Assembly: GCA_035063765.1 (NCBI GenBank)
Contig: JAPSFT010000012.1
Location: 1 to 64,000 of the forward strand
DNA from: Deltaproteobacteria bacterium
GTDB lineage: Bacteria > Myxococcota_A > UBA9160 > PR03
Length of the DNA: 64,000 bases
Direction of reading: 5' to 3'
This document shows positions 3,223-8,600 of this stretch, one piece after another. Within the stretch, counting starts at the first letter, position 1, and the number at the start of each line of letters is the position of its first letter. The notes below the pieces were generated by a model. That model saw only the letters and a list, made by a program, of their open reading frames with translations, was not told the origin of the DNA and ran no database searches. Made by a program: the position numbers and the translations under genes.

Positions 3223-4380
3223 TCAGGGCCGCTGCCCGCGGACGATCCACATCGCGAAGAACTGCGAGCCGCCGCCGTAGGCGTGGCCGAGGGCGGTCCG
3301 GGCCCCGTCCACCTGGTGCTCCCCGGCCTGCCCGCGCACCTGCAGCGCCGCCTCGGCGAAGCGCAGCATGCCCGAAGCCCCGATGGGGTTCGACGAGAGC
3401 ACGCCGCCCGACATGTTGACGGGCAGGTCGCCGTCGAGCGCCGTCGCGCCCTCGTAGGTCATGCGCCAGCCCGAGCCCTCGGGTGCGAAGCCCAGGTTCT
3501 CCATCCACATCGGCTCGAACCACGAGAAGGGCACGTAGATCTCGGCGCAGTCGATCTCGCGCCGGGGATCGCGGATCCCCGCCTTGTCGTAGACGGCCTT
3601 CGCGCACGCGCGCCCGGCCAGCGGGTTCACCTTCTCCTGGCCGGCGAACTGGGTCGGCTCGCTGCGCATCGCGGTGGACCAGACCCAGGCCGGCGGGTGC
3701 GCGGTCTCCGGCAGCGCCGCATCGCTCGACAGCACCAGCGCGCAGGCGCCGTCCGAGGACGGACAGGTCTCGTGGAAGCGGATCGGGTCCCAGAGCATCG
3801 GCGAGGCGGCCACCGCGTCGAAGCTCAGGGTCGCGTCGCGCACGTGCGCGTAGGGGTTCTTGAGCGCGTTCGCGCGGTCCTTCACCGCGACGCGGATCCC
3901 GGTGTCGTCGGGCGCGCCGCTGCGCTGCATGTAGGCGCGGATCAGCGGCGCGAAGTAGCCGCCCGCGCCCGCCACCACCGCCGCCTGGAGCGGCGTCTTC
4001 ACGGTGAGCGCCCACATCGCGTTGCTCTCGCTCTGCTTCTCGAAGGCGACGGTGAGCACGCGCCGGTGGATGCCGGCCTGCACCAGGCTCGCCGCGACGA
4101 TCGCGGTCGAGCCGCCGACCGAGCCGGCCGTGTGTACGCGCAGGAGCGGCTTGCCCGCCGCGCCGAGCGCGTCGGCCAGGTACAGCTCGGGCATCATCAC
4201 ACCCTCGAACATGTCGGGCGCCTTGCCGACGACGACGGCCTCGATGTCGCCCCAGTCGAGCCTGGCATCGGCCAGCGCGCGCTCGGCGGCCTCGCGCACG
4301 AGGCCCGCGATCGACACGTCGTCGCGGCGCGCCGTGTGGTGCGTCTGCCCGATCCCGACCACGGCGCAGCGCTCGGCCAT
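3223..4380 (-). CDS. thiolase-like (SCP-x/lipid-transfer-type) protein
   Basis: A 385-residue thiolase-fold protein of the SCP-x/Ltp subgroup. It starts MAERCAVVGIGQT, and its C-terminal region reads SSNPIGASGMLRF followed by GHAYGGGSQFFAM. The nucleophilic cysteine of true thiolases is not visible: the corresponding region reads HTAGSVGGSTAIV, and the second catalytic cysteine position near GHAYGGG also lacks Cys. Ltp2-type proteins of this subgroup act with a DUF35 partner as retro-aldolases in steroid side-chain cleavage. The presence of DUF35 genes in the same operon makes such a role plausible; this is inference. The ATG overlaps the stop of the upstream thiolase-like gene. Confidence 0.88.
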   Translation of the reverse strand: MAERCAVVGIGQTHHTARRDDVSIAGLVREAAERALADARLDWGDIEAVVVGKAPDMFEGVMMPELYLADALGAAGKPLLRVHTAGSVGGSTAIVAASLVQAGIHRRVLTVAFEKQSESNAMWALTVKTPLQAAVVAGAGGYFAPLIRAYMQRSGAPDDTGIRVAVKDRANALKNPYAHVRDATLSFDAVAASPMLWDPIRFHETCPSSDGACALVLSSDAALPETAHPPAWVWSTAMRSEPTQFAGQEKVNPLAGRACAKAVYDKAGIRDPRREIDCAEIYVPFSWFEPMWMENLGFAPEGSGWRMTYEGATALDGDLPVNMSGGVLSSNPIGASGMLRFAEAALQVRGQAGEHQVDGARTALGHAYGGGSQFFAMWIVRGQRP

Positions 4381-5429
4381 CACTCCCCCTCCAGCACGCA
4401 GACCAGGTTCTGCTGCAGGCACGGGCCCGAGGTGGCGTGGGCCACCGCGCGGCGCGCTCCTCCCTCGTGGATGCGCCGGGCCGCCTCGCCGATCCGGACC
4501 AGGCCCGCCGCCATCATGGGGTTCGCTGCGAGCGCCCCGCCCGAGGGGTTGATCACGACGTCCTCGCCGAGTCCCAGCGCCTCGCGCAGGATCCACTCCT
4601 GGTGCGTGAAGGGTGCGTGCAGCTCCGCCAGGTCCACCGGCGCGCGGCCCACACCGGCCTGCTCGCCGGCGAGCCGCGTGGAGGGCGAGCTCGTGAGGTC
4701 GCGCGCGCCGAGCGCGTGGGGCTCGATGCGGTGGTCGATCCCGCGGATCCAGGCCGGACGCCGGCAGACCTGGCGGGCGCGCTCGCCCGCCACCAGCACC
4801 AGCGCGGCGGCGCCGTCCGAGATCGGCGCGCAGTCGTGGCGGCGCAGCGGCGAGGCAACCGGCGGCTCGGCGAGCAGCTTGGCGACCTCGAAGTCGCCGG
4901 CCACGGTCGCGTAGGGGTTCGCCTTCGCGTCGCGGCGGCTGCGCGCCGCCACCGCGGCCAGGTCGCCCTCGCTGCGCCCCGTCTTCTCGAGCCAGGCGCG
5001 CGCCTGGAGCGCTGCCAGCGACACCGCGTCGGGCCAGAGCGGCGCCAGCACGTAGGGATCGAGCTGGCGCGAGAGCACCTCGGGCAGGTCGCCGGGCGAC
5101 GACTTCCCGAAGCCGTAGACCAGCGCCGTCTCCGCCTCACCGGTCTGGATCTTCACCCACGCCTCGTAGAGCGCCCAGGCGGCGTCCATCTCGACGTGCG
5201 ACTCGGGGATCGGCGGCCAGGCGCCCGCGGCGTCGAGCGCGAGCACGAAGGCGAAGGGCTGGCCCTGCAGGAAGTCGGTCGAGCCCGAGCAGGTGAAGTC
5301 GAAGGGACGCGCGATGCCCGAGCGCTCGACCGCCTCGTGCACCACCGGCATCAGGATCTCGACCTCGTTGCGCAGATCGCGCCGCGCGTGCTTCGACTGG
5401 GCGAAGGAGACGATCGCGACCTCGCGCAT
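4380..5429 (-). CDS. second thiolase-like protein, divergent
   Basis: A 349-residue divergent thiolase-like protein starting MREVAIVSFAQSKH. Typical landmarks are present: GSTDFLQGQPF, VYGFGKSSPGD, CAPISDGAAALVL and the C-terminal VINPSGGALAANPMMAAG. The usual nucleophile region reads ESHVEMDAAWALYEA, so the catalytic cysteine is absent here too. Two non-canonical thiolase homologues in tandem often form a heteromer, as with Ltp1/Ltp2-type pairs. It overlaps its neighbours on both sides by 4 bp (ATGA), which argues for co-translation with DUF35 protein and the next thiolase-like subunit. Confidence 0.86.
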   Translation of the reverse strand: MREVAIVSFAQSKHARRDLRNEVEILMPVVHEAVERSGIARPFDFTCSGSTDFLQGQPFAFVLALDAAGAWPPIPESHVEMDAAWALYEAWVKIQTGEAETALVYGFGKSSPGDLPEVLSRQLDPYVLAPLWPDAVSLAALQARAWLEKTGRSEGDLAAVAARSRRDAKANPYATVAGDFEVAKLLAEPPVASPLRRHDCAPISDGAAALVLVAGERARQVCRRPAWIRGIDHRIEPHALGARDLTSSPSTRLAGEQAGVGRAPVDLAELHAPFTHQEWILREALGLGEDVVINPSGGALAANPMMAAGLVRIGEAARRIHEGGARRAVAHATSGPCLQQNLVCVLEGE

Positions 5430-5932
5430 CACAGGTGCTCCTGGAGCTGGTCGAAGGGCACGTCCGGCTCGTCGATCGGCCGGAACCAGCGGATGCTCTG
5501 CAGGGTGGGCGCGAGCTCGGCCTCCGGCACCCAGGCCGCCTGCACGCGCATGCCGATCCGGACCTGCTCGAGCGGGCACTCCTGCACGACCGAGAAGAAC
5601 GGCACGTCGGTGCCGTCGAGCAGGATGTGCACGCAGGCGAAGGGCAGCGGCACGTCCAGGTTCTCGCTCGGCACGCGCACGATCGCGAAGGTGGTGACGG
5701 TGCCCTTGTCGGAGCACTCCACCTCCTGCTCGGTGGCCACCGCGCAGCGCGGGCACGAGCCTCGCGGGGGCACGTACACCTTGGCGCAGCGCGGGCAGCG
5801 CTGGCCCAGGATCTTCCCCTGCGCGATGCCGTGCAGGAAGCGCGAGGTGGCCGTACCGGCCGTGTACTGGTACTGGAGCCGCATGGGGGTCTTGATCGTC
5901 TTGACGGGCTGGGGCGCGGCGGTGTCGCTCAT
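5429..5932 (-). CDS. DUF35 OB-fold protein with zinc ribbon
   Basis: A 167-residue DUF35 protein. A rubredoxin-like zinc ribbon carries CPRC at residues 46-49 and CPRC at 60-63, followed by an OB-fold acyl-CoA-binding domain (GTVTTFAIVR, LPFACVHILLDGTD). DUF35 proteins pair with thiolase-fold partners, for example ChsH2 with Ltp2 and the archaeal HMG-CoA synthase/thiolase complexes, where they hold or channel the acyl-CoA. The gene overlaps the thiolase-like gene by 4 bp, consistent with such a complex. The four-cysteine ribbon is intact, unlike that of its neighbour. Confidence 0.92.
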   Translation of the reverse strand: MSDTAAPQPVKTIKTPMRLQYQYTAGTATSRFLHGIAQGKILGQRCPRCAKVYVPPRGSCPRCAVATEQEVECSDKGTVTTFAIVRVPSENLDVPLPFACVHILLDGTDVPFFSVVQECPLEQVRIGMRVQAAWVPEAELAPTLQSIRWFRPIDEPDVPFDQLQEHL

Positions 5933-5935
5933 GGT

Positions 5936-6394
5936 TCAGCCCTCCAGCTCGAAGCACTCGATGTCGCCGATGTCGCCGACGGTCTCGGTGCGCCAGCGCG
6001 GGCGCACGCGGGCGCCCGTGCGCAGCCGGGCCGGGTCGCCGGCGTCGACCGCGTGCAGGAGCGCGGTGTCGGCGCCGTCGAGCCGGATCAGCGCGTAGGC
6101 GAAGGGGTGCGCGAGCGGCTGCGTCTCCCGCGGCCGGGACACCCAGGTCCAGGTCGTGATCGTGCCGCCCGGGCCGACCTCGACGTAGTCGTCGGTCACG
6201 GCGGCGCCGGTGGCGGGATCCGCCTCGGCAGGCGGGCACAGCACGCGGCCGGCGCGCGTGCGCACCCCGACCAGCCGGCGCTCGCGCAGCGCGGTGAAGA
6301 AGCGCGACAGCACCGGCCCCACCGAGCGCCGGTACGGGTACTCGAGCACGTGCGGCGCCGAGAGCACGCCGTCGATCGTGGTCGCCTGGCCCAT
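5936..6394 (-). CDS. DUF35 OB-fold protein, zinc ribbon degenerate
   Basis: A 152-residue second DUF35-type protein beginning MGQATTIDGVLSAPHVLEY. The OB-fold portion is recognisable (GPGGTITTWTWVS, HPFAYALIRLDGADTALLHAV). The zinc-ribbon half is degenerate: only one cysteine remains (VLCPPAEADP), where a paired CxxC-CxxC arrangement is expected. The gap to the other DUF35 gene is only 3 bp. The intact plus degenerate pair parallels the two thiolase-like genes, so a complex with two DUF35 and two thiolase-like chains is possible; this is inference. Confidence 0.86.
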   Translation of the reverse strand: MGQATTIDGVLSAPHVLEYPYRRSVGPVLSRFFTALRERRLVGVRTRAGRVLCPPAEADPATGAAVTDDYVEVGPGGTITTWTWVSRPRETQPLAHPFAYALIRLDGADTALLHAVDAGDPARLRTGARVRPRWRTETVGDIGDIECFELEG

Positions 6395-6421: not shown

Positions 6422-7117
6422 TCAGCGTCCCCCGGTCCCGAGCACCAGCTCCGCCGCCACCCGCACCTGCTCGACGACGCCGCGCTCGGTGTGCAGCCCG
6501 GCCGACCAGCCGACCAGCGCCGAGAACCAGACGTGCATGAGCGTCTGCGCGGCGGCGCGCTCGCGCGCGCTCCCGATCGAGGCGTCGAGCGGCGCGGCGA
6601 GATCGGCCGGCGCGCCGCGCAGCGCCGCCGCCACGAGCCGCGCGATGCGGAGCTGGAAGGCCGCGACCTTGAACGCCAGCTCCTCGGTGCCGGTGAGGGC
6701 ACGGATCATGGCGCGGGTCAGGGCGGGGCGGCCGATCAGTGCCCGGCTCGTGCGGCCGAAGAAGTCCGCGGCGCGCTCGAAGGGGCTCGCGCCCGCGGGC
6801 GGGCGCGCGAGCAGGCCCTGCTCGAGCCGGCCCACCTCCTCGTCGAGCGCGAAGAGGAGGATGTCCTCCTTCGAGCGGAAGTACTTGTAGAGCGTCCCGA
6901 GCGCGACGTCGGAGCGCTCGGCCACGTCGCGCAGGCGCACCGCCTCGAAGCCACCCCCTTCGGCCAGCGCGACCGCGGCGTCCACGATCCGGCGCATGCG
7001 CTTGATCTGGTTGGCCGCGAGCCGGGCACCGGTCGGCACGGGCGTTCCAGGCAGCGGCGCGCGCGCGGCACGGGAGCCGGCACCAGCGGCGGGGTCGGCC
7101 TGGCGGGGGCGGGCCAT
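6422..7117 (-). CDS. TetR-family transcriptional regulator, KstR-like
   Basis: A 231-residue TetR-family repressor. The N-terminal helix-turn-helix spans roughly residues 40-85, with LRDVAERSDVALGTLYKYF and SKEDIL as the diagnostic part. The HTH is close in style to KstR-type regulators of steroid and lipid catabolism. It is the first gene of the minus-strand operon that continues with DUF35, thiolase-like and acyl-CoA synthetase genes, so it probably controls them and itself. A perfect KstR-type palindrome lies at 7128-7141, immediately upstream of its start codon. The ligand is presumably an acyl-CoA, by analogy with KstR and KstR2. Confidence 0.92.
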   Translation of the reverse strand: MARPRQADPAAGAGSRAARAPLPGTPVPTGARLAANQIKRMRRIVDAAVALAEGGGFEAVRLRDVAERSDVALGTLYKYFRSKEDILLFALDEEVGRLEQGLLARPPAGASPFERAADFFGRTSRALIGRPALTRAMIRALTGTEELAFKVAAFQLRIARLVAAALRGAPADLAAPLDASIGSARERAAAQTLMHVWFSALVGWSAGLHTERGVVEQVRVAAELVLGTGGR

Positions 7118-7127
7118 GGCGCAGGAT

Positions 7128-7141
7128 TAGAACACGTTTCA
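7128..7141. promoter_or_regulatory. KstR-type operator palindrome
   Basis: The 14-mer TAGAACACGTTTCA fits the published KstR consensus TnnAACnnGTTnnA at all eight fixed positions. It sits 10 bp upstream of the TetR start codon in an AT-richer 25-bp stretch of an otherwise very GC-rich sequence. That is where an autoregulatory operator overlapping a promoter would be expected. Binding is inferred from the match and context. Confidence 0.6.
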
Positions 7142-7171
7142 TTCCTGGCGGCAAGCGCCGGGGACGCCGGC

Positions 7172-7654
7172 TCAGCGCCGCCCGCGCGCCGCCTTGGCCT
7201 TGCGGGGCCGCTTGGTCGGCCGGGCCTTCGCGGCGCTCCGGCGCTTCGCCGCGCGCGGCGCGCGCAGCCGCGCGGTCACGCGGATCTCGACCAGCGCCCC
7301 GGGCGCCGCCAGCTCGACGATGCCGATCGCGGTCCAGGCCGGCCAGGGCGCCCGGAAGTAGCGGTCCTTCACGGCGAGGAAGGTGGCGATGTGCTCGCGC
7401 AGGCCCACGTGGAAGGTGGTCATCTCGACCACGTCCGAGAAGTCGAGCTTCGCCGCCGCCAGGACGCGCTTCACGTTCTCGAAGGCCTGCACGAACTGCG
7501 CCTCGGGCTCCGTCGAGGCCAGGACGAAGTGCTCGTCGGTGCCGAGCTGGCCCGCGCAGCGCAGCAAGCCGCCGGCGCGGACGGCCGGTGCGAAGTGGAA
7601 CTGGTCGTAGGCGATCTCCATGCCCCTCGGCACGACGACGTCGCTCTGCTTCAT
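7172..7654 (-). CDS. Rid-family (YjgF/YER057c/UK114) protein with basic C-terminal tail
   Basis: A 160-residue Rid-superfamily protein. The core (about residues 1-127) has GGLLRCAGQLGTD, FENVKRVLAAAKLDFSDVV and AIGIVELAAPGALVEIRV. The arginine that binds imine/enamine substrates in RidA is not conserved: the PARSCVEV-like motif reads PAWTAIGI. RidA-type deaminase activity is therefore unlikely, and a Rid1-7 or other subfamily is more probable. The last 30 or so residues form a lysine/arginine/alanine/proline tail (RPTKRPRKAKAARGRR) resembling histone H1-like or nucleic-acid-binding tails, which is not usual in the family. It sits upstream of the TetR operon with a 54-bp gap. Confidence 0.88.
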   Translation of the reverse strand: MKQSDVVVPRGMEIAYDQFHFAPAVRAGGLLRCAGQLGTDEHFVLASTEPEAQFVQAFENVKRVLAAAKLDFSDVVEMTTFHVGLREHIATFLAVKDRYFRAPWPAWTAIGIVELAAPGALVEIRVTARLRAPRAAKRRSAAKARPTKRPRKAKAARGRR

Positions 7655-7731: not shown

Positions 7732-7839
7732 GTGCCCGGCAAGCCGCGCGTCTTCATGCCCGACCTGGGCGTCCCGCCCTACGTCGCCCGCTGCAACGAG
7801 GTGGCGGCGCGGGGCTACGAGGGCTTCGCGGTCGCCTGA
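7732..7839 (+). pseudogene. C-terminal remnant of a class B flavin monooxygenase
   Basis: In plus frame from the GTG at 7732, 35 codons read VPGKPRVFMPDLG, then PPYVARCNEVAARGYEGFAVA, then TGA. This is the typical extreme C-terminus of Baeyer-Villiger/4-hydroxyacetophenone-type monooxygenases (VPGKPRVFMPY...YR..CDEVAA.GYEGF). No upstream FAD or NADPH domain precedes it: 78 bp further left the start of the Rid gene is reached on the other strand. The stop codon overlaps the end of the SDR gene on the opposite strand by 25 bp. I read it as the stump of a monooxygenase gene lost by deletion. Confidence 0.72.
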
Positions 7840-8600
7840 GTCTCGGGGCGCACCGCTCCGCGCGCGCGCAGCTCTCCGATCGTCACGATCTGGCCCGTCC
7901 AGGCGAGCGGCTGGCGCGCCATCCACAGGACGGCGTCGGACATGATGACGGGGTCCTCGAAGGGGAAGGCGTCCGCGTCGCCGAGCGTGGCGGCGAAGCC
8001 CTCCGTCCAGACCGGGACCTCGAGGCGCAGGCAGTTCACGGCGACCGCGCGCGCGCGCAGCTCGTGGCCGAGGCACTCGGTGAGCGACTCGAGCGCCGCC
8101 TTGGTCACCGTGTAGCCGGGGCGGCCGAACTGCGGGGTCCGCGCCGCACCGGAGGAGACGTTGACGACGCGGCCGCCGCCGGCCGCGGCCATGCGCGGCG
8201 CCAGGTGCCAGATCGCGTAGAAGGGGCCGTTCAGGTTCACGTCGACCGCGAGGCGCCAGCGCTTCGGCGTGTCGGCGAGGGCGGGCTTCGCGGGCGCCAC
8301 GGCCGCGTTGTTGACGAGCAGGTCGCAGCGGCCCCATTCCGCGTAGAGCCGCTCGACGAGCCCGGAGACCGCGCCCTCGTCGCGCACGTCGAGCGGTACG
8401 GCCCAGGCGCGGCGGCCGGCCCGCTCGACGAGCGCCACCGTCTCCTCGAGCGTGCCGGGGAGGCTGCCGGGCCGCTCGGAGGTCGAGCGCGCGGCGCACA
8501 CGACGTCCCAGCCGGCGGCAGCCAGGTCTGCGGCGAGCCGGCGGCCGATGCCGCGGCTCGCCCCGGTGACGAGGGCGACCGGCGCCGGCGCCGCACTCAT
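7815..8600 (-). CDS. short-chain dehydrogenase/reductase (SDR)
   Basis: A 261-residue classical SDR. The NAD(P)-binding motif TGASRGIG is near residues 13-20, LLVNNAAV follows, and the active site has NVSSGAARTPQFGRPGYTVTK with Ser, Tyr and Lys in the YxxxK arrangement. It would oxidise an alcohol or reduce a ketone of an unknown substrate. The ATG at 8600 overlaps the stop of the epoxide hydrolase, so the two are a transcriptional and translational unit. Together with the monooxygenase stump this looks like a small oxidative catabolism cluster. Confidence 0.9.
   Translation of the reverse strand: MSAAPAPVALVTGASRGIGRRLAADLAAAGWDVVCAARSTSERPGSLPGTLEETVALVERAGRRAWAVPLDVRDEGAVSGLVERLYAEWGRCDLLVNNAAVAPAKPALADTPKRWRLAVDVNLNGPFYAIWHLAPRMAAAGGGRVVNVSSGAARTPQFGRPGYTVTKAALESLTECLGHELRARAVAVNCLRLEVPVWTEGFAATLGDADAFPFEDPVIMSDAVLWMARQPLAWTGQIVTIGELRARGAVRPETQATAKPS

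Follow-up and report, generated by a model that had tools for sequence, protein, structure and literature searches.

In Mycobacterium tuberculosis the use of cholesterol is switched by KstR (Rv3574/MSMEG_6042 in mycobacteria), whose circuit has, to our knowledge, so far been described in, and treated as a property of, the actinobacteria. KstR2, which acts on the lower cholesterol pathway, is likewise a TetR-type repressor of steroid catabolism, although it has a different type of operator, AnCAAGnnCTTGnT, unlike the motif considered here. The operator of mycobacterial kstR lies in the promoter, where it overlaps the −10 element, and the gene is autoregulated; other published KstR sites precede Rv3520c/Rv3521, Rv3515c/Rv3516, Rv3545c/Rv3546 and Rv1894c (PMC1995591). 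The inducer of KstR is 3-oxo-4-cholestenoic acid or its CoA thioester, and KstR homologues were reported to be absent from bile-acid-degrading Proteobacteria (PMC8399759). Aerobic steroid degradation has been mapped out for Actinobacteria and Proteobacteria only (PMC4810484), and our literature search returned no relevant paper that connects KstR to either Myxococcota or Deltaproteobacteria.

KstR-family TetR proteins of Streptomyces and Nocardioides are of the same family as the regulator described below and about 34–40% identical to it, and many of their loci have TAGAACAAGTTTCA, TAGAACAAGTTACA or a similar sequence upstream. For Streptomyces and its kin (L112–L154), TAGAACAAGTTTCA or TAGAACAAGTTACA stands in a conserved stretch, mostly about 90–220 bp upstream of the start codon that our script selected. 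Judged by its sequence, the locus described here is part of a KstR-type regulatory system in Myxococcota, a system of known kind whose occurrence in this phylum is new as far as the searched literature shows.

Operator and promoter of the TetR gene

The window, by which we mean the whole 64-kb stretch of DNA analysed, carries TAGAACACGTTTCA at 7128–7141, a palindrome to which no strand is assigned. All eight of its eight fixed positions match TnnAACnnGTTnnA, as the original prediction stated, and this is the operator core of mycobacterial KstR too. The likeness extends to one published site: the 16 bases ATTAGAACACGTTTCA at the window operator are identical to the M. smegmatis MSMEG_3519 site (PMC1995591, Table 3), which bears out the earlier identification of the motif with the published KstR operator. 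The ATG of the TetR gene lies at 7117–7115 on the minus strand, and the gap between it and the operator is exactly 10 bp (7118–7127), again as first described. The pattern TnnAACnnGTTnnA has its single match within the window here, so the earlier statement that there is no other promoter-placed copy stands for the window; it does not extend to the genome, which holds five more sites of the same class elsewhere.

Dinucleotide shuffles of the window gave an expectation of 0.04 matches, and at least one match was present in 4 of 100 shuffles. A lone match in 64 kb is by itself only mildly unlikely, and these few shuffles are what speaks for a chance palindrome. However, a perfect operator stands upstream of TetR in 27 of 30 orthologous loci (own locus counted), conserved in both sequence and position, and the genome-wide count exceeds its reversed control, so that the site is far more than a chance match; footprint and control counts rule chance out, to a degree that leaves it a negligible probability. 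TAGAACACGTTTCA is very probably a functional operator of the kind through which tuberculosis bacteria regulate cholesterol breakdown.

In the TetR loci the operator usually takes the form TGAAAC(G/A)TGTTCTAAT or TGAAAC(G/A)TGTTTCAAT, and its distance from the start codon is mostly 8–11 bp. Aligning 27 relatives on the operator revealed other well kept columns, namely T-n-G-A-C-A at −13 to −8 and A at −2, together with a conserved A-T directly after the operator, which we read as part of a −10 element TCTAAT. The promoter predicted in the relatives is thus a TnGACA −35 element, 17 bp and a TCTAAT −10 element. At the equivalent columns of the window, both on the minus strand, the predicted −35 element is TTGCCG (7149–7154; relatives' consensus TnGACA) and the predicted −10 element is TCTAAT (7126–7131), 17 bp away and sharing four bases with the operator. 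The operator therefore occupies the spacer of TetR's own promoter and overlaps its predicted −10 element, the same layout as in mycobacterial kstR, for which autoregulation with an operator over the −10 element is established and here is predicted (PMC1995591).

Considering this layout, a repressor dimer would bind the palindrome within the 17-bp spacer, over the −10 element, and we propose that RNA polymerase is blocked as a result. The start codon of the window is 8 bp past the predicted −10 element, and across loci this distance is 6–9 nt; the transcript would therefore begin at the start codon or a few bases from it, and a leaderless-type transcript of the TetR operon is predicted.

In loci L074, L092 and L094 the perfect operator is preceded, at a distance of about 22 bp, by a second, slightly degenerate one of the TGAAACGTGTTTCC or TGGAACGTGTTTCC type. 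In the window a RidA-family gene (7172–7654) adjoins the TetR promoter on its upstream side, on the same strand as TetR. Its place is taken in the genus-mate G001 by an SDR gene homologous to window 7815–8600, which suggests that the RidA gene was inserted or lost locally.

The regulator and the operon that it heads

The gene behind the operator (6422–7117, minus strand) encodes a KstR-like TetR repressor of 231 aa, assigned by its Pfam domains (TetR_N and TetR_C_20), NCBIfam and PDB matches and position in the tree. Its best NCBIfam model is KstR (NF033703, an equivalog model), nearly the whole of which is covered at 110.4 bits, whilst the curated cut-off of 280 bits is reached neither by the regulator nor by any other protein of the genome. 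The runner-up reaches 49 bits, and some 20 further TetR proteins are weak matches to the model, so the regulator is the sole strong KstR relative in the genome. In the PDB it matches M. tuberculosis KstR best (E 5e-24), and the recognition helices of the two, VALGTLYKYFRSK and VAVGTLYRYFPSK respectively, are nearly identical, in agreement with the KstR-like HTH noted originally. Identity across the aligned piece is 36%, and the ligand domain is divergent.

A tree of 83 rows places the regulator in a Myxococcota-centred clade (support 99/97) and outside the neighbouring, mainly actinobacterial clade that holds M. tuberculosis KstR (support 97/89) and, unlike the regulator here, the Streptomyces and Nocardioides proteins; the root of this tree is soft, since the outgroup branches are long. 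A single clade of the actinobacterial rows alone gave a p-AU of 0.036, and one Acidobacteriota row nests among them. We also considered whether an actinobacterial KstR had been acquired recently; this is unsupported, given that the protein sits inside a broad Myxococcota-centred clade. The protein would work like KstR yet represent a separate branch; on its score (110 bits, with 280 required) and its place in the tree we class it as a KstR relative and not as a KstR equivalog.

Unlike its mycobacterial counterpart, the regulator here itself heads an Ltp3/Ltp4/ligase operon. The gene order on the minus strand is TetR, DUF35, DUF35, two thiolase-fold proteins and two AMP-binding ligases, with intergenic gaps of no more than 27 bp or slight overlaps, and the run is apparently a seven-gene operon. 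Family matches identify a DUF35/OB_ChsH2_C protein (5936–6394) and a DUF35 protein with a ChsH2-type zinc ribbon (5429–5932). They are followed by thiolase-fold proteins matching PRK07937 ('lipid-transfer protein'; 4380–5429) and PRK08313 (3223–4380), an acyl-CoA synthetase matching PRK07798 (1597–3201), all three above cut-off, and a second AMP-binding acyl-CoA ligase (47–1597; gene call and family match), probably the last operon gene in the window. We presume that the PRK07937, PRK08313 and PRK07798 proteins correspond to mycobacterial Ltp4, Ltp3 and FadD19, respectively, and use the names in that sense. The thiolase/DUF35/acyl-CoA synthetase operon of the original prediction is thereby confirmed.

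Sister sites and conserved targets

The assembly is 4.4 Mb and 96% complete, and the genome-wide statistics rest on pattern counts. TnnAACnnGTTnnA has 11 palindromic matches, and the reversed pattern used as control has 1. Six of the 11 form a tight class, with TGAAAC on one side and a purine-pyrimidine centre, and all six are promoter-placed; the five others were set aside, four of them lying within called genes. Relaxing the motif (TGNAACNYGTTNCA, one mismatch) added little (15/12 against 7/9 for the control).

Besides the window operator before the TetR operon (C12:7128), tight sites lie 34 bp before an igr-like operon (C11:15698), 11 bp before the probable ATG of an acyl-CoA dehydrogenase gene (C11:7181) and 31 bp before a nitronate-monooxygenase-family (NMO) gene (C3:71772), by our own gene calls. 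A fifth, TGTAACGTGTTTCA at C4:231649–231662 (L036:9949–9962), is 26 bp before three SDR genes, and also adjoins a divergent gene of 136 aa without a family match. The sixth, TGAAACGCGTTACA at C3:16990–17003 (L034:9990–10003), lies between the genes for a beta-propeller and a PEP-CTERM protein, which a lipid-catabolic regulator would hardly be expected to control.

The igr-like operon has the composition ChsE/ChsH2/ChsE/ChsH1/Ltp2/FadA5, and a site lies within 250 bp before its first gene in 24 of 30 loci; for the NMO gene the count is 12 of 30, and the reversed pattern gave 0 in both cases. G001 and G002 have four tight sites each, one for each of the TetR operon, igr operon, acyl-CoA dehydrogenase and NMO gene. 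The four targets recur in G015, which has three further sites, whilst G006 has sites before TetR, the igr operon and a different acyl-CoA dehydrogenase. Sites thus precede sterol side-chain gene types (igr/FadA5, Ltp3/Ltp4 and FadD19). We take Rv3520c/Rv3521 to be DUF35-Ltp4-Ltp3, Rv3515c/Rv3516 to be FadD19, Rv3545c/Rv3546 to be CYP125/FadA5 and Rv1894c to be an NMO-family protein; the target types common to mycobacterial KstR would then be the igr/FadA5 genes, DUF35-Ltp4-Ltp3 and FadD19, and we presume to liken Rv1894c to the NMO target. The regulon here has fewer sites than the mycobacterial one, about 4–7 tight sites in each TetR-bearing genome. A genome-wide scan for enrichment before lipid-catabolic operons, which the original prediction had proposed, was therefore positive, both in the 11 matches against 1 and in the conserved target sites.

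After the igr-like operon on C11, a further side-chain-type block (L038:12931–17491) encodes a luciferase-like monooxygenase, a thiolase-fold protein, a DUF35 protein and an AMP ligase, without an operator copy of its own.

The sites also follow the regulator across genomes. Across the 46 genomes with TetR the tight palindrome TRRAACRYGTTYYA occurs at 183 sites and its reversed control at 10; for the 15 genomes in which TetR was not found the corresponding counts are 11 and 10. At least one tight site was present in 46/46 and 6/15 of these genomes, respectively (p 3e-8, a value that is indicative only, since relatives are non-independent and some genomes are incomplete). Co-occurrence with FadA5 was rejected as a discriminator: a related thiolase is present in 61/61 genomes, above cut-off in 49. 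The roughly 20 further TetR proteins that weakly match the KstR model do provide candidates for another regulator that binds the sites, with the neighbouring KstR-like protein incidental, yet this is very improbable: the site is kept 8–11 bp from the start of the KstR-like TetR in relatives, it tracks the presence of that protein, and it is the published operator of that protein's best characterised relative. We are confident instead that the KstR-like TetR regulates its own gene through the adjacent 14-mer and also binds the sister sites, so that side-chain degradation is co-induced. Site, conservation, spacing, regulator association and target families are computed, and from them we infer binding, repression and the leaderless start. 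The repressor would hold the igr-like operon, the lone acyl-CoA dehydrogenase and the NMO-family gene together with its own operon, and an intermediate of the substrate would free it, so that the sterol-type side-chain genes are induced together.

Substrate and distribution

By analogy with KstR, the ligand may be of the steroid-acid or steroid-acyl-CoA type. The best PDB matches of the igr-like operon are 4x28 for the acyl-CoA dehydrogenase, 6ok1 and 4wnb for ChsH2, 6ok1 for Ltp2 and 4ubv for FadA5, and the Ltp2 and FadA5 types exceed NCBIfam cut-offs, with 'steroid 3-ketoacyl-CoA thiolase' among the models. Ring-degradation genes (KshA, HsaACDB, KstD) are a further target type expected of a KstR-type system. 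KshA_C, the oxygenase family of steroid 9-alpha-hydroxylase, was not found in this genome or in the genus-mate G001, a difference from mycobacteria, and is present in 44 of 61 genomes searched; the KstD-like protein of this genome is well below its model cut-off. A complete steroid pathway therefore lacks support, whereas control of the side chain is supported.

These same absences, and the divergence of the ligand domain from that of M. tuberculosis KstR, would also fit real operators and targets that serve another branched or polycyclic lipid (bile-acid-like, hopanoid-like or other isoprenoid acids) through a different ligand. We think this somewhat unlikely, as the FadA5- and Ltp2-type enzymes pass curated cut-offs that include the steroid thiolase models and have M. 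tuberculosis steroid enzymes as their best PDB matches. The evidence thus supports a repressor that probably controls a sterol-type side-chain pathway; the original proposal of a KstR-like system controlling lipid side-chain degradation is upheld by the conserved sites before side-chain genes and by the regulator match. More speculatively, the KstR-type regulon, with its operator, promoter layout and core side-chain targets, might be anciently shared by Myxococcota and Actinobacteria and here concern only the removal of side chains, with no coupling to 9,10-seco ring degradation.

TetR homologues are present in 46 of 61 near genomes (own counted) and in 52 of 189 genomes sampled across the phylum. 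The regulator, 14-bp operator, promoter layout and core targets, found in many uncultured Myxococcota, could serve as a marker for candidate sterol side-chain degraders, and the set offers a natural comparison for telling which parts of KstR recognise DNA and ligand. The host had been described as proteobacterium-like; it groups with MAGs of Myxococcota, formerly Deltaproteobacteria. The nearest named loci are from such Deltaproteobacteria/Myxococcota MAGs, with the isolate UBA9160, of the window's order, among them, and the promoter sequence of the UBA9160 locus is that of G025, another member of this order.
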